This document shows, in pieces, positions 273 to 43,595 of a stretch of DNA of 64,000 nucleotides. Position 1 is the first letter of the stretch, and each line of letters starts with the position of its first letter. The notes under the pieces are model-generated. The model had not been told where the DNA came from and searched no databases. It saw nothing but the letters and a program-made list of their open reading frames with translations. The DNA is from Desulfuribacillus stibiiarsenatis (GTDB lineage: Bacteria; Bacillota; Bacilli; Desulfuribacillales; Desulfuribacillaceae): contig NZ_MJAT01000033.1 in assembly GCF_001742305.1 (NCBI RefSeq), positions 1 through 64,000 on the forward strand. Direction: 5' to 3'. A program made the position numbers and the translations under genes.

Positions 273-737
273 TTACTTCTTCATAGAAGATTCTGTAGGA
301 ACTATTACACCTTCAGGTTTTAACACGTTCGGCACTGTAATTGACCCACTTTTGTCAAATTCAAATACAATGGTGAAAACATCAGGTAATTGTCGGAAGG
401 ATGGCATATTAAACATCATAATATGGTATCCACCCTTCTTAAACTCTATTTCTCCGTTCGGTATATTCACATGTTCAATCTGATACATACTCCCGTCTTT
501 GACATTGTGCAATTCAAATGTTGCTTCAGGGAACTCAGGAATCATAAAACCTGTAAAAGTGTCTTCGCCACCATTATTCCTTATTGTAAAATAGCCAGAG
601 TAAACTCCTTCGCCTTTCATTGAAGAAGGGGCAATCGAAATATTCTCGATTACTATATCAGGCGCCTTGTCACTACTACATCCAGTAGTAAAGATAAACA
701 TTGATAATAGTACCGCCATTATTAAAATTTTTCTCAC
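273..737 (-). CDS. PCu(A)C-like copper-binding lipoprotein
   Basis: Small exported lipoprotein of about 154 residues. The GTG start at 737 follows a GGGAGGG ribosome binding site; upstream in-frame starts have none. The N-terminus is a signal peptide ending in the lipobox FTTGC. The body reads as the PCu(A)C (DUF461) fold: an ELHN segment, a Met-rich middle and GYHIMMFN near the C-terminus, giving His and Met copper ligands. Family members carry Cu(I) outside the membrane and help load copper into cytochrome oxidase and similar sites. It is last in an operon with an ABC transporter, 17 bases after the ATPase. Copper delivery is inferred; the family call is fairly firm. Confidence 0.75.
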   Translation of the reverse strand: MRKILIMAVLLSMFIFTTGCSSDKAPDIVIENISIAPSSMKGEGVYSGYFTIRNNGGEDTFTGFMIPEFPEATFELHNVKDGSMYQIEHVNIPNGEIEFKKGGYHIMMFNMPSFRQLPDVFTIVFEFDKSGSITVPNVLKPEGVIVPTESSMKK

Positions 738-754
738 TAAATACCCTCCCATTG

Positions 755-1438
755 TTACAAACATGCTATTTCCCGTACATCGCCATCAATCAAGTGAAAT
801 CTACGGTTCGCTGCCTCTGCCCATTGTGGGTGATGAGTGACCATAACAACAGCCTTCCCGTTCTTCACCTGATCCTTCAATAACTTCATCACTTCTTCTG
901 CCCAATGTATGTCTAAATCGTTCGTTGGTTCATCTGCAATCACCAAAGATACGTCATTCACAAGTGCTCTTGCAACAGCTACTCGACGTCGTTGTCCAAC
1001 ACTCAGTTGATGCGGTAGAAAACGTAAACGTTCTCCTAACCCAAGCTTTCCTAAAAGCTCTATCGCCCTTTCACGTTGCGCCTTACTAGAAGATTTCCTC
1101 GTCTGTAAATATGTAGAGAAGAGTACGTTCTCAAGCACCGTTAATGTAGGAAATACGTTCGCCTCTTGAAATATAAACCCTACTTGGTTCGCTCTGATGG
1201 TTGTTAACTGAGCGTCCGTTAGGTTCGATATATCTTTTCCTTGAATCGATACAGAACCAGTTGTCGGGCGAAGCAATCCACCCATCACATATAAAAGTGT
1301 GCTTTTCCCTGTGCCAGATGGGCCTTCAATGGTAACGAATTCCCCAGCCTTAATGTCCAACGACACTTCCTTTATCGGACACACTTTTTCCCCAGCATCA
1401 TATTCTTTCGTCACTTTCTGCAATCGACATATATCCAC
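755..1438 (-). CDS. ABC transporter ATPase, LolD/MacB type
   Basis: ATP-binding subunit of about 227 residues. The Walker A reads GPSGTGKST near residue 40, the signature LSVGQRRRVAVARA near 140 and the Walker B LVIADEPTNDLD near 165. The start is GTG at 1438, preceded by GGGGTGA. Size and motifs match LolD/MacB-class ATPases, which drive type VII (mechanotransmission) ABC systems acting on extracytoplasmic substrates rather than channel transport. It lies 12 bases after the FtsX-type permease, its obvious partner, and 17 bases before the PCu(A)C lipoprotein. The substrate is unknown; handling of a metal or lipoprotein outside the membrane fits the neighbours. Confidence 0.9.
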   Translation of the reverse strand: MDICRLQKVTKEYDAGEKVCPIKEVSLDIKAGEFVTIEGPSGTGKSTLLYVMGGLLRPTTGSVSIQGKDISNLTDAQLTTIRANQVGFIFQEANVFPTLTVLENVLFSTYLQTRKSSSKAQRERAIELLGKLGLGERLRFLPHQLSVGQRRRVAVARALVNDVSLVIADEPTNDLDIHWAEEVMKLLKDQVKNGKAVVMVTHHPQWAEAANRRFHLIDGDVREIACL

Positions 1439-1450
1439 CGGTTCACCCCA

Positions 1451-2647
1451 TTATAAATTGCTTCGCGAAATCGCTTCTTGTGGATCTAATCTTGAGCTGC
1501 TCCAAGCAGGGTAAAAAGCTGCGAACAATCCTAGTAAGATAGCAACCCCTAGACTTACACTGCCTGTCAAAAACACATCTGTAGGCGTGATGTTCCAAGG
1601 CGGCATCACAAGAATTCCTTTTAGCCATTGCATGACATGAACAGAGCCATAACTACCTACAAGAATTCCTATACACCATCCGACAAGTACTGTAAACATT
1701 ACTTCAATCATGACCATTAGAAAGGCATCAAGTCTTCTGCCACCTAGTGCACGCATGACCCCAATTTCCCTTCTCCGCTCACGCGCTAATGATAAGAATC
1801 TACCGAATAAAGCTAAGGCAGAAGTAATGGCAAGGATAATCCACAGCCATAATAGAATTTGGTTCACTGCTTGCATTTGTCCCTTCATTTCCCCTATGAT
1901 TTCGCCCGAAGTAATTGCTTGTACCGGTAGTCCCATTTGGTTAATCTGGCGAGCAATAAGTTGAGGGGGATACCCTTCATCTGCTTGAATCATGATGACG
2001 GATATCAGGTCTTCTGGATTTTGTGACAGCCAATACCCTTGTAGCCCTGGGCTTTCTGCAGCCAATTCGCGAGCAACAGCAATATCCATAAAGATTGTCT
2101 CATCCATACCCGTTCCTGTTTGTTTCAATTGACCTGCAACTACGAATATTTCATCAAGAATGATTGCATGATCTCCGAAAAATGGCTTCACGATTCCACC
2201 AATTAAGATTTGCTCTGGGTCTAATGGAATCGAGATTTCCGTTTCTAACCATGGCGCAATGAGAAAGTCTGTGCTTGCATCATATCCAATTAATCTCTTT
2301 GCCTCTTTTAAATTACAACAACTCTCATCTAAAGACTGTGTGAAAAATTGCGGAGTAGCCTTAGCGATACCTTCAATTTCTAGTATTCTATCAAAATACT
2401 GTGATGGCATATACGCATTCACAGGTTCTGCAGTAAACAAGGTTTGTTGTGCGTTCACACCTACAACTTGAGGCAATACCACAACGTCTGCACCTAATCT
2501 CTCTGAGGATAACTGTATACTCCCTTGTAACATTGCTAGAATCATATGAGCAATCACAAACGTAGCAATCGCAATTGCTACTAAGAGAATCGTTAACAGC
2601 GATTGATGCATACGCCTTGTAACATTTCGCCAAGCCAAATGGAACAT
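1451..2647 (-). CDS. ABC transporter permease, FtsX/MacB family
   Basis: A 398-residue membrane protein with the MacB/LolE layout: one N-terminal helix (about residues 17-40), a large extracytoplasmic domain (about 45-265), then three helices in the C-terminal FtsX domain with the usual LARERRREIGVMRALG coupling segment. It starts 12 bases after the beta-propeller lipoprotein stop and ends 12 bases before the ATPase, so the genes are co-transcribed and the pair makes one transporter. The cargo is not evident. The extracytoplasmic domain holds paired Cys (ESCCNLKE), possibly metal- or disulfide-related. Confidence 0.88.
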   Translation of the reverse strand: MFHLAWRNVTRRMHQSLLTILLVAIAIATFVIAHMILAMLQGSIQLSSERLGADVVVLPQVVGVNAQQTLFTAEPVNAYMPSQYFDRILEIEGIAKATPQFFTQSLDESCCNLKEAKRLIGYDASTDFLIAPWLETEISIPLDPEQILIGGIVKPFFGDHAIILDEIFVVAGQLKQTGTGMDETIFMDIAVARELAAESPGLQGYWLSQNPEDLISVIMIQADEGYPPQLIARQINQMGLPVQAITSGEIIGEMKGQMQAVNQILLWLWIILAITSALALFGRFLSLARERRREIGVMRALGGRRLDAFLMVMIEVMFTVLVGWCIGILVGSYGSVHVMQWLKGILVMPPWNITPTDVFLTGSVSLGVAILLGLFAAFYPAWSSSRLDPQEAISRSNL

Positions 2648-2659
2648 GTAGACACTTCC

Positions 2660-3706
2660 TTACTTCTTAAAATAAGCTAATCCTACTGGACCACCTGTAA
2701 TTGCAATATTACTAATTTCGTTCTGTTTCTTGACATCAAAAATCTGTATAGAATTAGAATCCATATTAGTAACTGCTACCTTCGTAAATTCCCCTACAGT
2801 TGTGAGAGCAAAAGGATATTCACCCGTAGCAAAACGCGCTACTTCCGTATTATCCTTTTTCACATCTATCGCTACTATTTCCTTTGTTTCATGAAGAAGG
2901 ATATAAAGATAAGGATCTGCTAATTCAAGTGCTGCCGGCATATCTGATGTTGGAATTACACCAAGCTTTTCTTTGTTGGTTAAATCAAAGATAAAAACTT
3001 CATCGGCATCATCTTGCACTCCATGCCCACCACTATAGATTCTATCTGATTGAATATCGTAAGCGAGCCCTGAACTCTTAGGTACAGTTTCAAAAGTGTC
3101 TAGTATTTGTAGTGTGGTTAAGTCTATTATTACTAGAGTTCCTGCATCATGATTTGTTACTGCTAGCCTATTATTTGGTAGAATTTCTAAATTATAAGGG
3201 GACTTCCCTGTAACGATCTCGCCAATTACTTCTCTAGAAGTTAAATCTATAATAGAAACAGTATCTGCCCCTGAGTTGCTCACATACGCTCTATTCTGTG
3301 CTTCTTCTGTAATAATTAAAGCTGGGATACGTCCCACGGTCACTTTATGTAAAATATCAAATGTATCTAAGTCCAAAAACCATACTTCATTACTTAAAGC
3401 ACAAGCAATTAACAATTGGTTTCTATCCTTATCGACTGCAATCCCATATGGCTTCTTCCCAACTCTTTGTTCAGACGTAACTTTCCCTGTTGCAAGGTCA
3501 ATAGCAACTACCTTATCCTCGTTCATAGCCGTGACATAAAGTCGTTCATTATAAGTAATCGGCGTTGGATTTAACGGAGCCCACTCTTCTTGTTGCGGAT
3601 TGTTGGTAGTGCTTTTAGCAGTATCCTTAGTACCGCAAGCAGTTCCAATGAAAAGCAGAGAAATAACTAACATTACAATCAATAGTTTTTTTCTAATATC
3701 GCACAT
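2660..3706 (-). CDS. YVTN-type beta-propeller lipoprotein
   Basis: First gene of the minus-strand operon, 348 residues. A signal peptide ends in the lipobox IGTAC, followed by a Thr/Asn-rich linker and about seven repeats of the YVTN/YncE style, for example AYVSNSGADTVSIIDL and LAVTNHDAGTLVIIDL. These form an extracytoplasmic seven-bladed propeller tethered to the membrane. Propellers of this family bind partners or metals; some sit beside copper and denitrification genes. Co-transcription with an FtsX-type ABC transporter and a PCu(A)C lipoprotein suggests a role in assembling or monitoring an exported metalloprotein, which is inference. Confidence 0.8.
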   Translation of the reverse strand: MCDIRKKLLIVMLVISLLFIGTACGTKDTAKSTTNNPQQEEWAPLNPTPITYNERLYVTAMNEDKVVAIDLATGKVTSEQRVGKKPYGIAVDKDRNQLLIACALSNEVWFLDLDTFDILHKVTVGRIPALIITEEAQNRAYVSNSGADTVSIIDLTSREVIGEIVTGKSPYNLEILPNNRLAVTNHDAGTLVIIDLTTLQILDTFETVPKSSGLAYDIQSDRIYSGGHGVQDDADEVFIFDLTNKEKLGVIPTSDMPAALELADPYLYILLHETKEIVAIDVKKDNTEVARFATGEYPFALTTVGEFTKVAVTNMDSNSIQIFDVKKQNEISNIAITGGPVGLAYFKK

Positions 3707-6513: not shown

Positions 6514-7095
6514 ATGAGTCACGAACTACCGCAACTTCCGTATGACAAGAACGCTTTAGAGCCACACATTTCTTCCGAAACATTAGAATTTCATCACGGA
6601 AAGCACCATCAGGCATATGTTACGAATTTAAACAACTTAATTCCTGGAACTGAGTTTGAGAATATGCCCTTAGATGAAATCGTTAAGAAGTCTTCAGGTG
6701 GGGTTTTCAACAATGCCGCTCAAGTCTGGAATCATACCTTCTTCTGGAACTGCATGAGTCCGAACGGTGGCGGAGAGCCTACTGGAGAAATAGCTGATGC
6801 TATCAATGCAACTTTCGGTTCTTTCGATAGTTTCAAAGAGCAATTTACCAAGACAGCTGTTGGCACGTTTGGCTCTGGCTGGGCATGGTTAGTAAAGAAC
6901 TCCGACGGTTCCCTAGCTCTAGTTAGTACCAGCAATGCTCAAACACCTTTAACTACAGATCAAAAACCACTTTTGACTTGTGATGTCTGGGAGCATGCGT
7001 ACTATATCGATTATCGCAATGCACGCCCTAAATTTGTGGAGGCGTTCTGGAATTTAGTGAATTGGGATTTTGTCGCGAAGAACTTCGCTGAATAA
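6514..7095 (+). CDS. sodB: Superoxide dismutase, Fe type
   Basis: Cytoplasmic superoxide dismutase of 193 residues, converting superoxide to oxygen and hydrogen peroxide. All four metal ligands are visible: His27 in EFHHGKHH, the His in VWNHTFFW (about 74), and the Asp and His of DVWEHAYY (about 157 and 161). The stretch [16 protein letters not shown] and the GGGEPTG loop are those of the Escherichia coli SodB-like iron group rather than the manganese SODs usual in Bacillota. The start follows AAAGGGG. The gene stands alone on the plus strand with its own promoter and terminator. Iron rather than manganese is inferred from the motif. Confidence 0.95.
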
Positions 7096-15045: not shown

Positions 15046-15423
15046 TTATTTACTATGGTTTGCTTGTAAAAATTCTGTAACTGCTGCTTTTTCTTCATCC
15101 GTTAACAAACCTTGTTTGTATCCAATCATACGATCAATTACTGATGGCCATTGATCTGCCGCTTGAGGTGTTAATGTTTTGTCCATCAAATGACAACCTA
15201 TGCATTTCGCTTCTATTAGAACTTGCGCATCTAATGTAGCAGGTTCTGGCGCTGGTGCAGGTTGGTCTGCTGGTGCTTGTGCTGGCGGCTCTGGTGCAGG
15301 AGCTGGATCAGCAGCAGGTGCAGGGGCTGGGGCTGGTGTTGAATCGCTACTACTACACCCTACAACAGTGACTAACATCACACTTAGCAGCAAACAAATG
15401 AGTCCTATTTTTTTTGCGTTCAT
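15046..15423 (-). CDS. Monoheme cytochrome c lipoprotein
   Basis: Lipoprotein of 125 residues. The lipobox VVGCSSS is at about residue 22, followed by an Ala/Pro-rich flexible tether (about 28-62), then a compact domain with one heme c site CIGCH (about 75) and a distal Met candidate in DRMIGYKQG. The C-terminal domain closely matches the last 60 residues of the lipoprotein at 18142-18864 (AKCxxCH...QWPxVIDRMxGY...LLTxEE). It is divergent from the three-gene locus at 15670-18864 across a 246-base shared upstream region, so it probably shuttles electrons for that complex at the outer membrane face. The start follows AGGAGAG. Confidence 0.8.
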   Translation of the reverse strand: MNAKKIGLICLLLSVMLVTVVGCSSSDSTPAPAPAPAADPAPAPEPPAQAPADQPAPAPEPATLDAQVLIEAKCIGCHLMDKTLTPQAADQWPSVIDRMIGYKQGLLTDEEKAAVTEFLQANHSK

Positions 15424-15669
15424 TGTAACATCTCTCCTATCAATTTATGAATGTTCTTAGACAAGCCTAAGATATGTGAAATTATATTCTGCAATTGTAT
15501 ATCTGTCACTCTTTTATGTGCAAGTCGAGAATATTGTGATATTTGTATTTGATTCTATTTAGCAATTATTACAAATGTATTACCGCGTATTTTCCCTATA
15601 TGCTTCCGTTTCCTTTTATAGTAAAGTAGTTTTAAATATGAAGAAATTGTAAAGACGAGGAGGCTGTCA

Positions 15670-17037
15670 ATGGAATTCCCTGTGTTTGAACTTCAATATT
15701 TTGGTTCTAATACACTTATTGCTGTAATTGCAATAATTCACGTTATTATCTCCCATGGCTGTGCAGTAGGTGGCTCAATATACTTGGCCTCAACTGAATA
15801 CTTAGCTTATAAGAGAAAAGATGAACAGCTTGACCAATTCGCGCGGAAGTTCTTAAAGGTACTGTTTATTATTACTACAAGTGTCGGTGCTCTAACAGGT
15901 GTGGGTATATGGTTTGCCGTTTCTCTAGGTCAACCAATGGCAATCGCATCATTACTACGAGTATTCTTCTGGGCTTGGTTTGCTGAATGGATCGTATTTA
16001 TGACTGAAATTGCATTACTAGTCATTTACTTTTTTACGTGGAAAACAATTTACGAAAAGGGTAAGGCGCTTCACGTTAAGATTGGAATTGCGTATGCCGT
16101 AGCATCATGGTTTACGATGGTTATTATTACTGGAGTTCTAGCTGCCATGCTAACTCCTGGGGAATGGCTAGTGAGTCGTTCGTTCTGGGATGCATTTATG
16201 AATCCTACTTGGATTCCGTCATTACTTTTTAGAACTTCTGTTGCTGTTTCTTTAATTTCAGGATTTGCGCTACTATACGCGAGTTTAACTATTAAAGATG
16301 CACAATTTAAACAGAAAATCATTTCCTATACTGGAAAATGGCTGCTCGTATCTACTTTAACGATTCCACCAACAGGCATGTTTTATCTGTCTCGCGTTCC
16401 GGAAAGGGCAAAGGATTTACTAGTTTGGGCATCTGGATTCATTAATGAGAACACGTTTGTTTTATTAAACACAGTCGGTGCGCTAGTAATTTTCTTAATT
16501 GCCTTATGGGCAATTTTTCAAGGGAAGCGATTTCCTGCGATTCTTTCTTTAGTTGTGTTAGTATTATCTGTTTTTTACATTGGTGAAATGGAAATGGTCC
16601 GGGAGAAAATTCGTAAGCCTTACATGATTTATGGGTATATGTATGCTAATGGCGTGACGATAGATGATATTGACCATTTAAATACTGTCGGTGTTTTATC
16701 TTCGAGTAAGTGGTCTACTGTAAAAGAGGTCACTGCAACGAATCAACTACAAGCTGGACGTGAAGTGTTTAAGCTACAATGTAGTTCTTGTCACACAATC
16801 AATGGTTGGAATTCACGAAGAGATATCGTACAAATCACCAATGGTTGGCCTGAAGGAGCAATCAACGCCTATATTGCAAATCTGGATTCGTTCCACTATT
16901 TCATGCCTCCATTTTTCGGATTACCTGAAGAACGGGAAGCGTTAAGTAAGTGGATCTACAACTTCCAAACGAATTCATCGAATAGTTCACTCAATACATC
17001 TTTTGTTGGAGAAAGGAAGGTGGCAGTCAATGAATAA
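15670..17037 (+). CDS. CydA-like membrane subunit with C-terminal cytochrome c domain
   Basis: Membrane protein of 455 residues with about nine helices, then a heme c domain (CSSCH near 378). Helices 1-5 follow CydA order: HVIISHG (heme ligand region), ALTGVGIWF, FFWAWFAEWIVFMTE (acidic residues of the oxygen-reducing helix) and the segment before FRTSVAV. The heme b558 His found in CydA (VHTVAS) is replaced here by Arg (FRTSVA). There is no long Q-loop. EMVREKIRKPY resembles the ExxRxPW-like end of CydA. I infer a bd-superfamily quinol oxidoreductase passing electrons to c hemes instead of, or as well as, oxygen. First of a three-gene operon; start after GAGGAGG. Confidence 0.72.
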   Translation: MEFPVFELQYFGSNTLIAVIAIIHVIISHGCAVGGSIYLASTEYLAYKRKDEQLDQFARKFLKVLFIITTSVGALTGVGIWFAVSLGQPMAIASLLRVFFWAWFAEWIVFMTEIALLVIYFFTWKTIYEKGKALHVKIGIAYAVASWFTMVIITGVLAAMLTPGEWLVSRSFWDAFMNPTWIPSLLFRTSVAVSLISGFALLYASLTIKDAQFKQKIISYTGKWLLVSTLTIPPTGMFYLSRVPERAKDLLVWASGFINENTFVLLNTVGALVIFLIALWAIFQGKRFPAILSLVVLVLSVFYIGEMEMVREKIRKPYMIYGYMYANGVTIDDIDHLNTVGVLSSSKWSTVKEVTATNQLQAGREVFKLQCSSCHTINGWNSRRDIVQITNGWPEGAINAYIANLDSFHYFMPPFFGLPEEREALSKWIYNFQTNSSNSSLNTSFVGERKVAVNE

Positions 17038-18142
17038 TTTACCGATTCCTACTGAATTAGACCTGCCAATTCCTGGATCTGTTCCTTTTTTTACAGTATT
17101 GCTCGTAATTAGTTTTATACTTCATATTATTTTTGTGAATGTGATGATTGGTGGTACGGTCGTTGCGCTCGTTACAGAGTATCTCGGTATTAAACGTAAT
17201 GATGTTCGGTATGACCGATTAGCCCAGTCTATGATAACTGTAACCTCTGTGAATAAGAGTATCGCAGTCGTACTTGGAGTAGCGCCATTATTATTAATTA
17301 GCGTACTGTATACGAGGTTTATCTATTCTTCCACAGTGCTCATCGGCAAAGCTTGGATTTCAGTAGTACCTCTAGTAATCATCGCTTTCCTGTTCTTGTA
17401 TGCTTACAAATTTTCTTGGGAATCGATGAGAAACTCCAAAGGGATGCATATGCTACTAGGACTTGGTGGTGTAATCCCATTACTGTTTATCCCGTTAATT
17501 TTTTCTACCAACATGGTGTTAATGCTTGTACCTGACCGTTGGTTAAGTACCACTAGTTTCTGGCAAGCAGCAATGCACAGTAGCGTGCTACCAAGATATT
17601 TCCATGTTTTGTTTGCCTCTTTTGCACTCATTGGTATTATGATTGTTTTGATGGGCTATTGGCAAAATCTTAAAGCAACAACTGCTGAGGAGCAATCCTA
17701 TCGCCAATGGACTATGCAATATGGAATATACTGGGCACTTTATGCAATCCTTGGGCAGCTATTTGTTGGTCCAGTCCTTTTATTCTTACAACCCTCGGGA
17801 GTAAGAGCGTCGTTTTTGGGCGGATCAAATACATGGATGATTATAATTGCAGTAATCCTAGTGTGTGGAATTTTAACCACATTATATTTAATGGGTAAAT
17901 CTCTTAACTCTAAAGCGCTCAATACACAATCGATGACAAAAACTGTTAGTGAAACTGCTGCTACTGTAGAACAGGGACTTACTTCTAGGAATAATGACAG
18001 GAAAACATGGGGTATCATCATTGCGTTGTTATGTGTGCTGCTTTTAATGGGTACAATCCGTCATCAAGTAAGAGAAATACACTTAGCACCTTATCAAAAC
18101 CCGTCCTTCGAACAAAACTTGATAAAGGAGGTCTCAAAGTAA
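17030..18142 (+). CDS. Second CydA-like (CydA') membrane subunit
   Basis: Membrane protein of 370 residues with about nine helices. It starts at 17030 inside the end of the previous gene (8-base overlap, GGAAGGTGG upstream). Its first helices repeat the pattern of its partner (FILHIIFVNVMIGG...VTEYLGIKR against IIHVIISHGCAVGG...STEYLAYKR), so the two are paralogues. It keeps a His where the partner has Arg (LPRYFHVLFAS). It has no CydB features and no CxxCH. The natural reading is a CydA' partner forming a heterodimer with the upstream subunit, each supplying some heme ligands. Heme content is inferred. Confidence 0.65.
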   Translation: MNNLPIPTELDLPIPGSVPFFTVLLVISFILHIIFVNVMIGGTVVALVTEYLGIKRNDVRYDRLAQSMITVTSVNKSIAVVLGVAPLLLISVLYTRFIYSSTVLIGKAWISVVPLVIIAFLFLYAYKFSWESMRNSKGMHMLLGLGGVIPLLFIPLIFSTNMVLMLVPDRWLSTTSFWQAAMHSSVLPRYFHVLFASFALIGIMIVLMGYWQNLKATTAEEQSYRQWTMQYGIYWALYAILGQLFVGPVLLFLQPSGVRASFLGGSNTWMIIIAVILVCGILTTLYLMGKSLNSKALNTQSMTKTVSETAATVEQGLTSRNNDRKTWGIIIALLCVLLLMGTIRHQVREIHLAPYQNPSFEQNLIKEVSK

Positions 18143-18864
18143 TGAGAAAACTCCTAAAAAAGCTTTTTCATAGAAAAAGTTTACTAGTTTTGGCAGCTTT
18201 ATCTGTGTTGTTGATTCTAGCAGGCTGTGGCGCTCAAACTACTGATACTAAGAAAGTTCATGATGGGCCACCTAAGATCCCTCATACTACAAATGCAATA
18301 GATAATTGCCTAGTTTGCCATGAGACTGGTCTTATGGGTAAAGCTCCTATAACGCCTCACCCAGAACGTCCAAATTGCCAAATGTGTCATGTTTCTTCTC
18401 AGGAAATGGCTAAAGTACCAGTTCAAGAATCACCTAGTACTCAACCTACAGAACCAATACAACCTCCTGTTGAGGAACCAAAACAACCTGTAGAAGAGCC
18501 AAAACAAGCTGAGCAAGCAACTCCGACTGCACAAGAAAAGCCTGTTGAGCAACAAAAGCCTGTTGAGCAACAAAAGCCTGTCGAGCAACAAAAGCCTGAC
18601 GAGCAACAAAAGCCTACAGAACCAAAATCAACCGAACAACCTAAACCTGCTGAACAACCTAAACCAGTGGTAACGATTGATTTTAATAGTTTGTTAGAAG
18701 CTAAATGCTCTATGTGTCATACGAAAGAACAAGCAGTTACTCCACAACCGACACAGCAATGGCCAACCGTTATCGACCGTATGTTGGGCTACAATGCTAG
18801 TTTACTAACAAGCGAAGAAAGAACTGCATTGATTCAATATTTACAAAATACGTATAGCAAATAA
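18142..18864 (+). CDS. Triheme cytochrome c lipoprotein, NapB-like plus monoheme domain
   Basis: Lipoprotein of 240 residues whose start codon overlaps the upstream stop (TAATG), with AAAGGAGG before it. The lipobox LAGCGAQ is near residue 27. A short diheme segment (CLVCH and CQMCH, with KIPHTT and RPNCQMCHVSS) resembles NapB, the diheme subunit of periplasmic nitrate reductase. Next is a Pro/Gln/Glu/Lys linker with repeated KPVEQQ units, then a C-terminal domain with CSMCH nearly identical in layout to the lipoprotein at 15046-15423. It likely takes electrons from the membrane subunits. No nitrate reductase catalytic gene is present. Confidence 0.78.
   Translation: MRKLLKKLFHRKSLLVLAALSVLLILAGCGAQTTDTKKVHDGPPKIPHTTNAIDNCLVCHETGLMGKAPITPHPERPNCQMCHVSSQEMAKVPVQESPSTQPTEPIQPPVEEPKQPVEEPKQAEQATPTAQEKPVEQQKPVEQQKPVEQQKPDEQQKPTEPKSTEQPKPAEQPKPVVTIDFNSLLEAKCSMCHTKEQAVTPQPTQQWPTVIDRMLGYNASLLTSEERTALIQYLQNTYSK
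18541..18612 (+). repeat. Four 18-bp tandem repeats in the cytochrome linker
   Basis: Four in-frame copies of an 18-base unit (cctgttgagcaacaaaag) encode the PVEQQK hexamer. The first two are identical and the last two differ by one or two bases. They lengthen the linker between the NapB-like and monoheme domains of the lipoprotein and can expand or contract without frameshift. Confidence 0.85.
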
Positions 18865-22713: not shown

Positions 22714-22780
22714 TTATTCTCTATATGTCTTTATATGCCAGATATATGATTTCGATTGACGAATTAGCCTAAAAAAAATA

Positions 22781-22803
22781 AAACTGCTGAGTTTTCAGCA
22801 GTT
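22781..22803. terminator. Terminator of the copper/iron-sulfur operon
   Basis: AAACTGCTGA and TCAGCAGTTT form a 10-bp stem with a tiny loop; A-rich sequence on one side gives a T-run on the minus strand. It lies about 45 bases after the stop of the minus-strand cupredoxin gene. Confidence 0.7.
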
Positions 22804-22849
22804 TTATAAGATTCATTATTACATGTAAGATGTAAGCTCTAGAATACAA

Positions 22850-23230
22850 TTATTGTACAATTAATGTTCCCCTGATTTTTGCATGTAACGGACTGCATAT
22901 TATATTACATACATAACCATATTCTCCAGGTCCTTCAGCAATAAATTCTATAACTTTAATCTCTCCTGGCTTGATTCTTCCGGAATCAACACCTAATTCC
23001 CCGATAGAAAACCCATGAGATACATCTTCACTAATCAACCGCAATTTCACAAGTTGACCTTCCTGAACAACGATTCTACTAGGAGAGAATCCACCTTTTT
23101 CGTGAGCTCGCAAATAAACATCAATTACATCTGGATCTTTCGTAGCATTATCCCCTAAGATTGCTCCCACAGGAACAACCAGTATGATAAAAACCGCAAA
23201 GGCCCCAGCTAAAAATTCCTTCATACGCAT
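22850..23230 (-). CDS. CuA-like cupredoxin, membrane-anchored
   Basis: Protein of about 126 residues: one N-terminal helix or signal anchor (MKEFLAGAFAVFIILVVPVG), then a cupredoxin fold. His in VSHGFSI and the loop CNIICSPLHAKI follow the CuA spacing C-x3-C-x3-H-x2-M, except that the final Met is Ile. It may bind CuA with an altered axial ligand or a mononuclear copper. The start at 23230 has GGGAGGG before it. It is 24 bases after the CuA-polyferredoxin gene, whose own cupredoxin domain it resembles (VTHGLFI against VSHGFSI), suggesting duplication and a joint electron-transfer role. Confidence 0.8.
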   Translation of the reverse strand: MRMKEFLAGAFAVFIILVVPVGAILGDNATKDPDVIDVYLRAHEKGGFSPSRIVVQEGQLVKLRLISEDVSHGFSIGELGVDSGRIKPGEIKVIEFIAEGPGEYGYVCNIICSPLHAKIRGTLIVQ

Positions 23231-23254
23231 GTATATCCCTCCCATCAAGGTTTC

Positions 23255-25222
23255 TTAGATATATAACCATAAGAATAAAGCTGTAATTGCCATTAAAAAC
23301 ACTGTAATTGGTAATAGCAATCTAAACTTCTGGCCTTTATCTAATGGATACTTTGCAATGATTTTTGCTCCAATCCAATTGGAATAAATAAGACCAAAGA
23401 ACAAGATGAAAGCTTGAATATATGGATATACTCCAGTTCCTACTGGTTTCCACTCTAATCCTTTTGTTCCAAACAAGTTCCAACCCCACCCAAATGGATC
23501 AGATATTACATGTAAAATATAGACAATATTGATAAACAGGAAGGATACGCTAAACGCCATCCAGCATGCTAATCCCATCGGCACTAATACATACGACAAA
23601 TCAATGAATAGTTTCTTAAATGACTCACTAGGATTCGCTGATTTTTCTGCTGTAGCCGCTGCTTCTGCTTGCGCACTACTTGGAACAAACATACTCTTTG
23701 TCGATTTTAACATGTCTACAATTGGCGTGAAAATATGCCCTATTTTAGAGAAGTCTTTAAATGCTAGCCCTTTACCAATCCAAACAAATAACGCGAACAG
23801 AAGTGGTACGATCAATAAGTTTAAGACTAGGAATCCACCTGCGTAAATGAAGAACCCAGGCATACTCATGTTCGCCCAAGTCTTGAAGATTCCCCATGGA
23901 CCTTGGAAGATTACCGAATATGCTAATGCGCAAGTCAACATAATGAAAGCCTTGTAAGCTTCATCTAACTTCTTGCCTTTTTCCACTAATAAGTCTGCAC
24001 CAAAGCTTTGCCAGTTTAGGGCAATATTCTTCTGTGAACAACTCTTGAAACATTCTAAACAAAGTCCACAGTAAGCGTTTCTTTCCATCGTCCAAGGAGT
24101 TTCCATCCATGGACAACCATATGCCTTTTCATTTCCAACAATACACTCTTTATCCTTGTGAGCACGGCATGTTCCTTTGTCACGGACACGGACCCCAAGT
24201 GGTGCAAGTAATGAGTATAATCCGATAAAGCCCCCTACTGGGCACATATAACGGCAGAAAATACGTTTTCCGTAAATCACTGTAGTAATAATTGCTAACA
24301 CTATAAAGAAACTTAAAACAATAGAAGTAGCCAATGGACGCGTAAGAATGATTCCACTAAATAAAGCAACTAATAAAAATGACCAGTTTTGTAGCCAGAT
24401 ATTCTTAAGTCCCTTCGGCCACCCTTTAATTGCTACAGATGGAGCCTTTTCACAGCCTTTATCTATAAATGCTCTTCTGTCAATCCATTCCCCAGGAGCA
24501 GGTATAGGACAAATCGTACACCATAATCGTCCCCCGATTGGTAGTAGTATGATGATCAGTAGTGCCCACCATAAAATCCAAACAAATATCAATGAGAAAT
24601 TCGCGTTCCCAACGTTAGTACCTGCAAATCCTGCAAAGATTACTATCGCAAAAAAGAAAGTATTTACGATAAATATTAGATATATAATCCATCGTTGATT
24701 TAAGATATATTCTAACCACGGATATTTTTTGTTTAAATCAATGCCTTCTTTTGGTGCTTGGACGTTTTTAACAAGCTCATCACTTCTTCTATAAACATAG
24801 AATAGACTTGTCATTCCAATGCCAATTGTTAAAAATAAAGCGATTGGGAACGTGGGATTCGGATCTACCACTAAAGTTCCAATCATAAAAGGATGCATAG
24901 GCCCACACACAATCGGACAACGGAACGTAAAGTTTCCCGTCTTGTCAGCAACAAATTCAATAATGCCAACTTCTGGATCTTTTGGTTGATCGTATGCTTT
25001 TATATCATATCCATCAATAAATAGCCCGTGTGTTACATCATCAGCAATCAATGTGATTTTCACACGATCACCTTGTTTGACATTAATTTTATTTGGTACA
25101 AATTCATATTGTTTCGCATGAACAGTAATTTTAACAACTTGATCTGCACTTGCTTGCGGTAGAGGAATAATGAACTGTACTACAAGCAAAATCAGAAATA
25201 AATATGCAATTTTACGTTTCAT
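23255..25222 (-). CDS. CuA cupredoxin fused to NosR/NapH-type polyferredoxin
   Basis: Membrane protein of 655 residues. A signal peptide is followed by a cupredoxin domain (about 27-120) with a complete CuA motif, CPIVCGPMHPFM, and an upstream His in VTHGLFI. Then come about ten helices with cytoplasmic Fe-S motifs like those of NosR, NapH and CcoG: CTICPIPAPGEW (about 235), CRYMCPVGG (about 325) and CGLCLECFKSC (about 390), plus extra Cys at CRAHKDKEC. This layout could pass electrons across the membrane between Fe-S clusters and an outside copper centre. Whether it serves N2O reduction, the peroxidase upstream or something else is unknown; no nosZ is in the window. Confidence 0.75.
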   Translation of the reverse strand: MKRKIAYLFLILLVVQFIIPLPQASADQVVKITVHAKQYEFVPNKINVKQGDRVKITLIADDVTHGLFIDGYDIKAYDQPKDPEVGIIEFVADKTGNFTFRCPIVCGPMHPFMIGTLVVDPNPTFPIALFLTIGIGMTSLFYVYRRSDELVKNVQAPKEGIDLNKKYPWLEYILNQRWIIYLIFIVNTFFFAIVIFAGFAGTNVGNANFSLIFVWILWWALLIIILLPIGGRLWCTICPIPAPGEWIDRRAFIDKGCEKAPSVAIKGWPKGLKNIWLQNWSFLLVALFSGIILTRPLATSIVLSFFIVLAIITTVIYGKRIFCRYMCPVGGFIGLYSLLAPLGVRVRDKGTCRAHKDKECIVGNEKAYGCPWMETPWTMERNAYCGLCLECFKSCSQKNIALNWQSFGADLLVEKGKKLDEAYKAFIMLTCALAYSVIFQGPWGIFKTWANMSMPGFFIYAGGFLVLNLLIVPLLFALFVWIGKGLAFKDFSKIGHIFTPIVDMLKSTKSMFVPSSAQAEAAATAEKSANPSESFKKLFIDLSYVLVPMGLACWMAFSVSFLFINIVYILHVISDPFGWGWNLFGTKGLEWKPVGTGVYPYIQAFILFFGLIYSNWIGAKIIAKYPLDKGQKFRLLLPITVFLMAITALFLWLYI

Positions 25223-25247
25223 TCGTTCACCCGCCTTTTTTTTTAAA

Positions 25248-25275
25248 AAAAGCCACCTCTAAGCAAGGTGGCTTT
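25248..25275 (-). terminator. Terminator after the diheme peroxidase gene
   Basis: AAAAGCCACCT and AGGTGGCTTTT form an 11-bp stem; the minus strand continues with a run of T. It lies 18 bases past the peroxidase stop and just before the polyferredoxin start, so readthrough into the downstream pair would be limited. Confidence 0.75.
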
Positions 25276-25292
25276 TCTATTATTTAGTAAAA

Positions 25293-26330
25293 TTAAGGAA
25301 GTGTTGGCTCATCAACGATTGGAAGTGTGCCATTTAATGACTTCAAGAATGCTACTAAGTTTGCTTTTTCAGCATCACTTAAGTTAAGTGGTTTGATTAG
25401 AACACTCTTGTTCGTGTGGTTGTCTCCACCTTTATTGAAGTATTCTACAACGTCCTCTAATGTAGCAACTGTACCATTATGCATGTAAGGAGCTGTATGA
25501 CCAATTCCTCTTAATGCAGGTGTCTTGTACTTACCAGAATCTTCTGGGTTCTTAGTGAAGTTTGCTCTTCCTAAATTGTCATTCTCAATTCCAACATTGT
25601 GGAAGTTGTTATCTGTTAAGCTAGCGCCATTATGGCATTGGATACAGTTCGCTTTACCAACGAACAACTTCATACCTTCTTTTGCTTCCGCAGATAGTGC
25701 TGATTCATCACCAGCTAACCACTTGTCGAACTCAGAGTCATTGATTACGATTGTTCTTTCAAATGCAGCGATAGCTTTCGCTACACCATCTGTAGTAATT
25801 TCACTATTGAATACTTTTTGGAATCTTTCAACATACTCAGGTACTGCATTTAACTTTACTAATAACTCATCTAAAGATAAGTTCATTTCACCTTTATCTT
25901 GAATAGGACCTAATGCTTGCTCTTCTAAAGTCTTCATTCTTCCATCCCAGAACTGTAAGCTGTAATGTCCAGAGTTAATGATTGATGGTGAGTTACGCAC
26001 ACCTACGTTACCTTGGAACCCTAAGAAAGTCTTACGGTTGTCGCTCCAACCTTTTGCAGGCTCGTGACAGCTAGCACAGCTAATTGTGTCATCACCAGAT
26101 AATCTCTTGTCGAAGTATAACATCTTTCCTAATTCGATTTTCTCGTCAGTCATTGGGTTGTCTTCAGGAATCGGCATTGCTCCTAATGGCGCAAATACCG
26201 TTCTAGGATCAACTGCAGGTGCTTCAGGCGCAGCAGCAGGTGTTGATGTAGTTGTGCCGCCACAAGCAGTTAGCGTCGCAATGCTAAACACTGCAACTAA
26301 AGCAAGTAATAATAAAGTCCGTTTTTTCAT
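25293..26330 (-). CDS. Diheme cytochrome c peroxidase / MauG-family lipoprotein
   Basis: Lipoprotein of 345 residues with lipobox LTACGG near residue 23 and an Ala/Pro linker. The CCP/MauG catalytic region follows: first heme CASCH (about 85, in DTISCASCHEPAKGWSD), second heme CIQCH (about 232), and a Met-containing motif TAPYMHNGT near 283. Family members reduce hydrogen peroxide with electrons from small cytochromes or cupredoxins, or oxidise protein side chains. It lies between a blue-copper-like lipoprotein upstream and the CuA polyferredoxin downstream, which may supply electrons. As a lipoprotein it works at the outer face of the cytoplasmic membrane. Confidence 0.9.
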   Translation of the reverse strand: MKKRTLLLLALVAVFSIATLTACGGTTTSTPAAAPEAPAVDPRTVFAPLGAMPIPEDNPMTDEKIELGKMLYFDKRLSGDDTISCASCHEPAKGWSDNRKTFLGFQGNVGVRNSPSIINSGHYSLQFWDGRMKTLEEQALGPIQDKGEMNLSLDELLVKLNAVPEYVERFQKVFNSEITTDGVAKAIAAFERTIVINDSEFDKWLAGDESALSAEAKEGMKLFVGKANCIQCHNGASLTDNNFHNVGIENDNLGRANFTKNPEDSGKYKTPALRGIGHTAPYMHNGTVATLEDVVEYFNKGGDNHTNKSVLIKPLNLSDAEKANLVAFLKSLNGTLPIVDEPTLP

Positions 26331-26369
26331 GTTTTGCTTCTCCCCTTATAATTTTTATAAATAAATTAG

Positions 26370-26412
26370 TTGAGCCAAGCTCTAGACACTTTTTGCCATG
26401 AAATTGGCTCAA
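26370..26412 (-). terminator. Hairpin between cupredoxin and peroxidase genes
   Basis: TTGAGCCAA and TTGGCTCAA form a perfect 9-bp stem with a 25-base loop. No strong T-run follows on the minus strand, so it is a weak terminator, a processing site or an operator rather than a clear end of transcript. Confidence 0.35.
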
Positions 26413-26447
26413 ATAATTACTTACCAAAAACACTTCCGTACTAAAAA

Positions 26448-26861
26448 TTATTCTTCAACAACAAATGTCATTTTGATCCAAGGGTGAATTGTGCATAATG
26501 GCTCGTATGTACCTGGCTTATTTGGAACTTCCCAACCACTTCTTACCGTTTGACCACCATCAACAAGAATCTCTGGTAAGCCAATCTCTTTACTTAAAAA
26601 GTTATGTTCTCCGTCTGGATCTGTATTTACAATTTCAAATACAACCTTTTCCCCAGCTTTTAACGTAATAGAGTTCGGTACAATTGTTTGTGGTGTAAAG
26701 TCTAAATTGATAATGCGTGCATCTTCATATCCTGCTGGAATCGGTGGAATTTCATTGGTTACTGGTGCTGGAGTTGGGCTACTAGCCGCGTCATTCCCCC
26801 CGCAAGCTACTAAAGATAGTGATAATACCGTTACTAATGCAATACCTAATAATTTTTTCAT
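26448..26861 (-). CDS. Cupredoxin-domain lipoprotein
   Basis: Lipoprotein of 137 residues with lipobox LVACGG near residue 20. The cupredoxin domain shows a His in DGEHNFLS and the C-terminal loop CTIHPWIKM, i.e. Cys, His and Met ligands of a mononuclear (type 1-like) copper site. It is probably an electron carrier on the outside of the membrane. It precedes the diheme peroxidase gene on the same strand by 117 bases and is a likely donor for it. The start follows AGGAGG. The 323 bases upstream are AT-rich and hold promoter-like sequence and the speD terminator, but no ORF. Confidence 0.85.
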   Translation of the reverse strand: MKKLLGIALVTVLSLSLVACGGNDAASSPTPAPVTNEIPPIPAGYEDARIINLDFTPQTIVPNSITLKAGEKVVFEIVNTDPDGEHNFLSKEIGLPEILVDGGQTVRSGWEVPNKPGTYEPLCTIHPWIKMTFVVEE

Positions 26862-27184: not shown

Positions 27185-28024
27185 TTAAACCTTGTCTATA
27201 TTTCGACCGTAGTAAATCTCAAGCATTTCCTTTTTAATTCTTTGTTTGATTTTTCCTCTTTCTCTTGGTAGCAAGTCCTTCTTATCTGTGCCAAACAAAT
27301 AGTGATTTAAATCAAACTCTCTTAGTAACATTTTCGTATGAAAAATGTTTTCTTGATATACGTTTACATCAATCATGTCATACATTTCACGGGTTTTGCT
27401 ATTCATGAAATTTTGAATAGAATTTATTTTGTGGTCAATATAAAACTTATTCCCATTGACGTCACGAGTAAATCCGCGTACGCGATAATCAATATAGCAG
27501 ATATCCGGTTCAAAACTTGTCATTAAATAATTCAGAGCTTTCAATGGCGATATTTCACCACAGGTAGATACGTCAATATCTGCTCGGAACGTGCTAATCC
27601 CTTTATCAGGGTGGTTCTCTGGATACGTATGTACCGTAATATGACTCTTGTCCAAATGACCAACAACCGAATCCTTTTCAATCTTATCCTTATCAGGACC
27701 AGGCCCTTCTGAAGCTGCCATGTTGATTGGTGGATCGGTTTCATTCACAACTTCATTCTCCGCTACTAGCATTGTTACGCTAGCACCTTGTGGGTCATAG
27801 TCTTGATTGGCAATGTTCAGAATATTAGCTCCAATAATATTCGCTACTTCAGACAAAATATGAACCAAACGCTTTGCATTATATTCTTCATCGATGTATT
27901 CAATGTACTTTTGTCTTTGTTCGATATCTTTTGCATAACAAATATCATAAAAGTTAAAGCTTAATGTCTTTGTAAGGTTATTAAATCCATACAATTTAAG
28001 CTTTTCCACTGGCTTAATTTTCAT
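27185..28024 (-). CDS. speD: S-adenosylmethionine decarboxylase proenzyme
   Basis: Enzyme of 279 residues making decarboxylated S-adenosylmethionine, the aminopropyl donor for spermidine. Length and sequence are of the long Escherichia coli class, not the short 125-residue SpeH usual in Bacillus. The self-cleavage Ser that becomes the pyruvoyl group lies in [17 protein letters not shown] near residue 123, and the family stretch [20 protein letters not shown] follows. The start has GGAGGGG upstream. It stands alone with its own terminator; no spermidine synthase gene is in the window. Confidence 0.95.
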
Positions 28025-43255: not shown

Positions 43256-43350
43256 ACAAAAAAACAACCGTACATATTGTTAATTAAACATACAATACTT
43301 TGTCTCCCGCAAACACCTCCCTATATCCCCGTAGGTCACTTCGTGTCCTC

Positions 43351-43521
43351 TAAACAGGCAGGTCTCCTGACTTACCATCAATGCTCCTTGCGTCTTCCCA
43401 CTTTTTAGATAAAGCAGTGACTGCTTGCAAGTTGCTCCGGATTACAGTGGCGGGAACCGTGCCGGACTTTCACCGAGCTTCCCTTTTAAGCTTAGCATGC
43501 TTTATGCATAGCACCTGTTTA
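43351..43521 (-). promoter_or_regulatory. Cobalamin riboswitch aptamer
   Basis: On the minus strand the aptamer opens with TAAACAGGTGC and closes with GCCTGTTTA (43351-43358 with 43514-43521, P1 stem). Inside are the B12-box region (GCCACTGTAATCCGG), the AAAGTCCGGCACGG element, and GGGAAGACGCAAGGAGC, all standard cobalamin-aptamer landmarks. With the terminator at 43225-43255 it should switch off cbiMNQO when coenzyme B12 is plentiful. Confidence 0.96.
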
Positions 43522-43595
43522 GAACTTGTATATAATTTTAATTCATATTACATCATCACTAGCTTATTGTCTAACAATACATCTCCCAGGATTCG

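Follow-up and report, generated by a model that had tools for sequence, protein, structure and literature searches.

What does an operon do in which a CuA site is attached to an iron-sulfur (Fe-S) membrane protein and a diheme enzyme is encoded next to it? The question is raised by four genes on the minus strand, at 22850-26861, of a 64,000-nucleotide stretch of Desulfuribacillus stibiiarsenatis DNA (contig NZ_MJAT01000033.1, positions 1 to 64,000), which as a whole is referred to as the window. They encode a type-1 (blue) copper lipoprotein (T1Cu), a diheme lipoprotein of the CCP/MauG family, a 655-residue fusion of a CuA domain with a polyferredoxin, and a second CuA-like protein (CuA2). Our answer, which in our judgement has an even chance of being right, is that the operon forms a membrane-to-outside electron relay, with a module of the NosR/NapH/RdhC kind that bears CuA in the place of the flavin domain and serves exchangeable extracytoplasmic enzymes. 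The features of the operon are:

26448..26861, minus strand: T1Cu (P0004), 137 residues, lipobox around C20 (open reading frame, Pfam and alignment, AlphaFold2 model).
25293..26330, minus strand: diheme CCP/MauG-family lipoprotein (P0003), 345 residues, two CXXCH (Pfam CCP_MauG, 1.1e-58; alignments to Protein Data Bank entries).
25248..25276, minus strand (listed on the plus strand by the scan): hairpin followed by a T-run in the diheme/fusion gap, possibly a partial terminator (hairpin scan and sequence).
23255..25222, minus strand: CuA-polyferredoxin fusion (P0001), 655 residues, with a signal peptide, CuA at about 25-122, about ten membrane helices, CX2CP and CX3CP, 4Fe-4S cysteine sets, and DPFGWGWN at 575-582 (Pfam, alignment, AlphaFold2 model).
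22850..23230, minus strand: CuA2, membrane-anchored, with Ile for the axial Met; its open reading frame opens at TTG 23248 (open reading frame, Pfam, alignment).
22778..22807, minus strand: hairpin resembling a terminator, which closes the operon after the CuA2 gene (hairpin scan).

All four open reading frames run in the same direction, as had been stated by an earlier reading of the letters alone (the sequence-only reading), and they are separated by gaps of 117 (T1Cu/diheme), 70 (diheme/fusion) and 24 bases (fusion/CuA2). The ribosome-binding site makes ATG 23230 a more probable start of CuA2 than TTG 23248. A promoter scan gave 16 matches, against 16.8 expected. The extent that the sequence-only reading gave to the system was correct for the four genes, but the system reaches further, as 273-3706 of the window holds orthologues of the genes beside the operon in its relatives.

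The fusion contains Cupredoxin_1 (residues 10-119) and Fer4_5, both above the Pfam gathering score. A full CuA motif had been claimed for its N-terminus, and all ligands are indeed present, i.e. C102, C106, H110 and M113 in the motif CPIVCGPMHPFM together with a His at position 65 (H65). Part of CPIVCGPMHPFM, written as a degenerate DNA pattern, matched the 3.1 Mb genome once, and the reversed-pattern control not at all. By sequence, the closest solved structures are the CuA domains of Cox2 and NosZ. An AlphaFold2 model built from 46 sequences (predicted local distance difference test, pLDDT, 89.9; predicted template modelling score, pTM, 0.89) has residues 25-122 resembling CuA domains at Z 13-14 (6ptt, Z 13.7, 1.6 Å over 94 residues; 1fwx, Z 13.2) and about ten membrane helices in the remainder. 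The domain thus shares all CuA ligands with those of Cox2 and NosZ, with Z 13-14 to Cox2-type domains, but is attached to an Fe-S membrane protein and not to an oxidase or NosZ. Two fused relatives (L079, 9944-11950; L090, 9893-11845) have Glu, not Met, as the last ligand position of the CuA motif.

Three Fe-S motifs had been described in the membrane part. Fe-S cysteine motifs do occur there, but as one CX2CP (C235/C238), one CX3CP (C323/C327) and seven further conserved cysteines (C352, C360, C370, C385, C388, C391 and C395) rather than as three equal motifs; the conserved cysteines are interpreted as two 4Fe-4S sets. An alignment of 90 proteins, one of which, a distant paralogue, was excluded from the counts, has Cys at C235, C238, C323, C327, C360, C370, C385, C388 and C391 in every row that is not gapped there, and at C352 and C395 in 87 of 89 rows. 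The same alignment has no conserved membrane His, which disfavours haem b. The segment DPFGWGWN (575-582) is nearly invariant and predicted to face outward. A distant paralogue of the membrane part (25%), devoid of CuA, is encoded at L121 (6957-8300; G000 contig C2) near a His-rich small protein and a two-component system.

The Fe-S loop at residues 318-418 has 16 Lys and Arg against 9 Asp and Glu, and by the positive-inside rule it is therefore placed in the cytoplasm, with CuA, behind the signal peptide, outside. This predicted arrangement, for which the sequence-only reading had proposed structure prediction as a check, is supported by the AlphaFold2 model as well as by the loop charge.

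In T1Cu the ligands H86, C123, H126 and M131 (CxxHxxxxM) have plastocyanin spacing and are invariant in all seven aligned proteins; most of residues 49-137 exceed a pLDDT of 90 in the AlphaFold2 model, whose fold is that of cupredoxins (Z 12-15). The CuA2 motif, CNIICSPLHAKI, retains the His, Cys, Cys and His ligands and has Ile at the axial Met position.

Relatives were collected by a scan of 84,980 species genomes, from which the best 80 of 204 loci were kept, mostly from Chloroflexota, with some from archaea and others. Together with loci from later searches these make 90 rows, or 88 after removal of L146 (= L014) and L148 (= L038), taken as duplicates from the length of the contig and the position on it; the near-identical L051 and L147 are counted as one species. 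Because many contigs are short, the lack of a gene near the module is no firm finding. The search across genomes that had been suggested for the fusion architecture did find it beyond the window, but as a full-length single reading frame in 14 of the 88 loci only. Most loci encode CuA and the Fe-S membrane protein separately; a second CuA protein comes next and often carries a cytochrome c domain. Within 8 kb of the module, RdhA was found at four of the 88 loci, CCP at three (one of them L067, where it is 5 kb away), NosZ in two rows and T1Cu at six. A Methanoperedens locus (L070, 8914-15602) has a CuA protein, an Fe-S protein, a polyferredoxin and CuA2, then proteins with five and eight CXXCH, and is possibly another user of the module.

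The operon itself recurs in L143, from a Bacillota genome of a class other than that of the window, where T1Cu, CCP, the fusion (61% identical) and CuA2 follow in the same order, flanked on the opposite strand, divergently, by beta-propeller, DUF4418, FtsX and ABC genes. In an IQ-TREE phylogeny of the 88 rows, with an unusual amino-acid composition flagged for the window row, the window and L143 form a group with support 100/100. Their nearest sister group consists of four loci, L011, L015, L130 and L144 (99/95), and all six are united at 99/96. Their assignment to Chloroflexota comes either from the name or from a draw on the class to which L015's genome belongs. Here lies what the sequence-only reading had missed, namely that the closest relatives of the fusion sit in reductive-dehalogenase operons. 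The order in the four loci is T1Cu, RdhA, RdhB and fusion, followed by PCuAC (in three of the four; DUF4418 in L011), FtsX, ABC and propeller genes, with the second CuA also kept; RdhA-RdhB thereby take the place, between T1Cu and the fusion, of the diheme CCP in the window. Two RdhA proteins of L130 score 252.9 and 259.4 bits against the NCBIfam RDH cut-off of 160.35. That of L011 matches PF13486 at 1.1e-30 and keeps the aligned PceA residues Tyr246, Asn272 and Arg305, which we take to have functional roles in the reductive dehalogenase. No RdhA was found in the window genome by a search that matched 10 of 40 genomes.

T1Cu occurs within 8 kb of the module in only six of the 88 loci, all of them in this clade. 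The axial Met of CuA2 is replaced by Val, Leu or Ile in all six, whereas among CuA2-type matches outside the clade 42 have Met and two have Asn or Gln. No locus other than these six combines a T1Cu gene with a CuA2 that lacks the axial Met. Since both traits are confined to the six-locus clade, the same operon place holds either CCP or RdhA while the copper parts are constant.

L011, L130 and L144 have NapG- and NapH-like genes as well, and L015 has a NapH-like gene; in the RdhA loci the copper parts may therefore form an extra arm. Three of these loci (L130, 1228-19999; L144, 3680-19586; L011, 2567-17234) hold RdhA genes, three of them in L130, together with NapG/NapH-like genes, a multihaem cytochrome, blue copper, the CuA fusion and two-component genes, the last seen at least partly.

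The fusion is rare: it was found in one of 398 genomes of the window's class, i.e. the window's own, which suggests spread by horizontal transfer. A draw from the phylum gave five of 398 genomes, including the window's own and one with 61% identity, the class of genome G483 one of three, and draws from Chloroflexota five of 396 (cut-off 1e-150) and one of 400 (cut-off 1e-140). Among 72,556 plasmid records there were seven matches, and in no case was more than 80% of the query covered. Fused CuA-polyferredoxins of the archaeal loci L061, L064 and L066 (Archaeoglobi, Thermoplasmatota) are on a separate, well-supported branch, and the fusion may thus have arisen more than once.

The accessory genes that accompany the copper proteins in relatives, likewise passed over by the sequence-only reading, are found beside the start of the contig:

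2660..3706, minus strand: beta-propeller lipoprotein (YncE/lactonase-like), whose orthologue adjoins the operon in L143 (42% identity; family and similarity searches).
1451..2647, minus strand: FtsX/MacB-type permease, with its best matches in L143, L130, L011 and L015 (similarity and family searches).
755..1438, minus strand: ABC ATPase, partner of the FtsX permease (open reading frame, similarity).
273..764, minus strand: PCu(A)C-type copper chaperone lipoprotein (Pfam PCuAC, 3.3e-12; similar to PCuAC of L015, L130 and L144).

The FtsX permease matches those of L011 and L015 at about 1e-50, the next among the first 80 loci being at 1e-10. A split or clade III NosZ, made up of the propeller (2660-3706) and CuA, was considered and rejected, as the propeller scores 39.8 bits with L-NosZ against 700. 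With so weak a match, and few His common to the window and L143 propellers (H186, H228, H272), no CuZ-like site is claimed for it.

Several known systems resemble the fusion. RdhC/PceC share with it a membrane module with Cys-Pro motifs and an outer redox domain, but differ in that the outer domain carries covalent flavin mononucleotide (FMN) instead of CuA, in the extra 4Fe-4S cysteine sets, missing in RdhC, and in the diheme partner of the window (PMC5928378). The same paper describes the FMN domain of PceC as lying on the outside of a similar membrane module and proposes an analogous electron route via FMN (PMC5928378). In the sister clade, moreover, the fusion adjoins rdhA-rdhB as rdhC does. 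NosR likewise joins an outer redox domain to a polyferredoxin membrane part that serves an extracytoplasmic reductase, but Pfam and NCBIfam scans of the fusion found no FMN-binding domain, with Cupredoxin_1 in its stead. The NosR/RdhC membrane module has two CX3CP; the fusion has one CX3CP (C323) and one CX2CP (C235). A neighbour of the NosR/RdhC type is absent, since the window genome has neither nosZ nor rdhA, while the sister clade has rdhA. NapH, too, has Fer4_5 and Cys-Pro motifs and matches fusion residues 292-401 weakly (NCBIfam TIGR02163, 29.1 bits; cut-off 213.05), but the fusion bears CuA instead of handing over to NapG as in the NapGH quinol dehydrogenase. The NCBIfam model for the cupric reductase CcoG is not among the fusion's matches at E 1e-3.

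On the computed gene set, its conservation, the enzyme exchange at one operon place in one supported clade, the copper ligands and the predicted topology, we propose the following route. The membrane part of the fusion would take electrons, most likely from menaquinol, its cytoplasmic 4Fe-4S clusters possibly assisting or relaying from a cytoplasmic donor. Electrons would pass to the fusion's own CuA on the outer face and then, through CuA2 and/or the T1Cu lipoprotein, to an extracytoplasmic redox enzyme, which would be the diheme CCP/MauG-family protein in the window and L143 and the reductive dehalogenase in the sister clade. PCuAC and the FtsX/ABC/propeller block would supply or service the copper sites. 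That the copper parts are kept while haem enzyme and dehalogenase differ suggests a wire able to serve different end enzymes. The sequence-only reading had envisaged a copper/Fe-S bridge feeding an outside acceptor; CuA outside, Fe-S inside and a diheme enzyme in the operon agree with this, but we infer the outward flow to that enzyme, as we do the donor, the carrier order, the copper role of the ABC block and H2O2 as substrate.

A number of points weigh against such a relay, and the first concern the diheme enzyme. Like bacterial diheme cytochrome c peroxidases and MauG it has two c-type haem sites (CXXCH), a CCP_MauG domain and a conserved QFWDGR...LEEQA segment; its assignment to this family by the sequence-only reading stands, and so does its operon membership, as the recurrence of T1Cu-CCP-fusion-CuA2 in L143 makes it part of the set. 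What was overlooked is that the usual second-haem ligand is missing. Phe298 aligns with the second-haem Met of 1iqc and of 3hq8, a Phe stands at the same place in the L143 orthologue (71% identical), and the L067 CCP-type protein has Tyr there. Ordinary H2O2 reduction is therefore not assured, and the enzyme, with neither Met nor Tyr at its second haem and genetically tied to a CuA relay, is no textbook cytochrome c peroxidase; it may have a different potential or reaction. CCP-type operons, furthermore, number just two (window and L143), and the accessory block lies about 19 kb from the operon. Typical CuA and T1 potentials, at about +0.25 V, suit H2O2 and not RdhA, and Desulfitobacterium RdhA receives electrons directly from menaquinol via RdhB. 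These two grounds cast doubt on a common donor role in the two branches. The low-potential centres of RdhA lie at about -350 and -480 mV, according to PMC10624902. Lastly, most relatives lie in copper-handling surroundings: PCYCGC is near 55 of the 88 loci, DUF1573-like proteins are found in 30 and CopA in 14 of the 90 rows, and YHS and DUF305 proteins also occur.

These neighbours, and the PCuAC and ABC block in the window's own clade, speak for the strongest rival, which we consider unlikely but worth serious attention: the CuA-polyferredoxin unit would reduce and load or detoxify copper outside the membrane, the adjoining redox enzymes being coincidental customers. CcoG is thought to do such copper reduction for the cbb3 oxidase. 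Coincidence, however, does not sit well with the exchange of CCP and RdhA at a single operon position in one clade; neither is a copper enzyme, and in neither the window nor L143 was a CopA, PCYCGC or DUF1573 found less than 8 kb from the fusion.

Less probable again is that the diheme protein is a MauG/MbnH-like modifier oxidising residues of a partner copper protein, with the copper relay draining or supplying electrons during maturation. The absence of the second-haem Met would fit, and its top NCBIfam models are MauG (TTQ_mauG, 258.8 bits) and MbnH (239.5 bits), but both scores are far below the cut-offs of 443.85 and 362.85. The second-haem ligand of MauG is Tyr, a position that is Phe here, the nearest solved structures are classical peroxidases (1iqc, 2e-60, against about 1e-22 for MauG), and no substrate candidate was identified.

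Somewhat more doubtful than either is a system of the FtrABCD / P19 type, in which metal uptake would be assisted by redox chemistry and the haem protein would act as the oxidant. Such systems combine a cupredoxin, a polyferredoxin and FtsX-ABC, all of which have counterparts here; FtrB is a good fold match of T1Cu (Z 13.6, 1.6 Å over 88), and an FtsX-ABC-DUF4418 block adjoins the L143 operon. On the other hand, CuA is fused to the polyferredoxin, and inspection of the open reading frames of the window, L143 and the RdhA loci, as opposed to a family search, recognised no FTR1 permease or P19.

As a long shot, the RdhA loci could encode a quinol-splitting copper system, in which one menaquinol electron would go to a high-potential copper arm (CuA, CuA2, blue copper and the multihaem cytochrome) and the other would thereby be pushed to the low-potential NapGH-like/RdhA arm; the Bacillota operon would have kept the copper arm only and re-used it for the diheme enzyme. 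If true, organohalide respiration would here include an electron bifurcation driven by copper.

A nitrous-oxide (nos) electron-transfer module is the least probable of all, for although the fusion's CuA domain matches that of NosZ and one species does have NosZ directly downstream, no NosZ or L-NosZ was found in the window genome (best 49.4 bits, from CuA domains, where a true NosZ reaches 209.9 bits with the same model), and among 40 genomes that carry the module 28 lack a NosZ above the cut-off, while just one of the remaining 12 has the gene adjoining it. Membership of the window operon in a nos cluster was rejected on these counts. The sequence-only reading, which saw no nosZ in the window, is borne out for the whole genome, and the neighbour tally it had called for did not place the fusion regularly in nos clusters, NosZ being beside the module in one species of the 88 loci. 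The sole nos context found is that of the Limnochordaceae loci L051 (10237-14201) and L147 (6544-10863), with split CuA1, Fe-S and CuA2 genes and NosZ (Sec-type model, 910 bits) directly next.

Elsewhere in the window, 27185-28024 upstream of the operon encodes an adenosylmethionine decarboxylase (family search), unrelated as far as seen. At 15046-18864 a gene with a match resembling bd oxidase subunit I (17003-18142), one for an adjoining membrane protein that has CXXCH near its C-terminus (15670-17037) and others for small c-type lipoproteins perhaps encode another quinol:cytochrome c system. A cobalamin riboswitch (43340-43533, minus strand; Rfam, 116 bits) lies upstream of a gene that, judged by eye, encodes a CbiM-like transporter, and a superoxide-dismutase-like open reading frame, seen by eye without family search, is at 6514-7095, about 16 kb from the operon.

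The open-licence PubMed Central literature, judged by title or abstract, gave no description of copper proteins in a reductive-dehalogenase operon, and searches there that paired CuA, cupredoxin, NosR, reductive dehalogenase, PCYCGC and MauG in various ways had nothing on this system among the papers listed, in one case 20 of 213. The electron relay proposed here consists of known building blocks in a new arrangement, i.e. a conserved copper/Fe-S relay, an operon that is rare and occurs in two Bacillota genomes, and, unexpectedly, a sister form linked to a dehalogenase, in which copper proteins are surprising on potential grounds. How membrane quinol oxidation is wired to outside enzymes via NosR/NapH/RdhC-type proteins is an unsettled question, and a natural family with CuA for the flavin domain and a swapped enzyme (diheme, RdhA, once NosZ) offers a direct comparative test of the shared membrane module.

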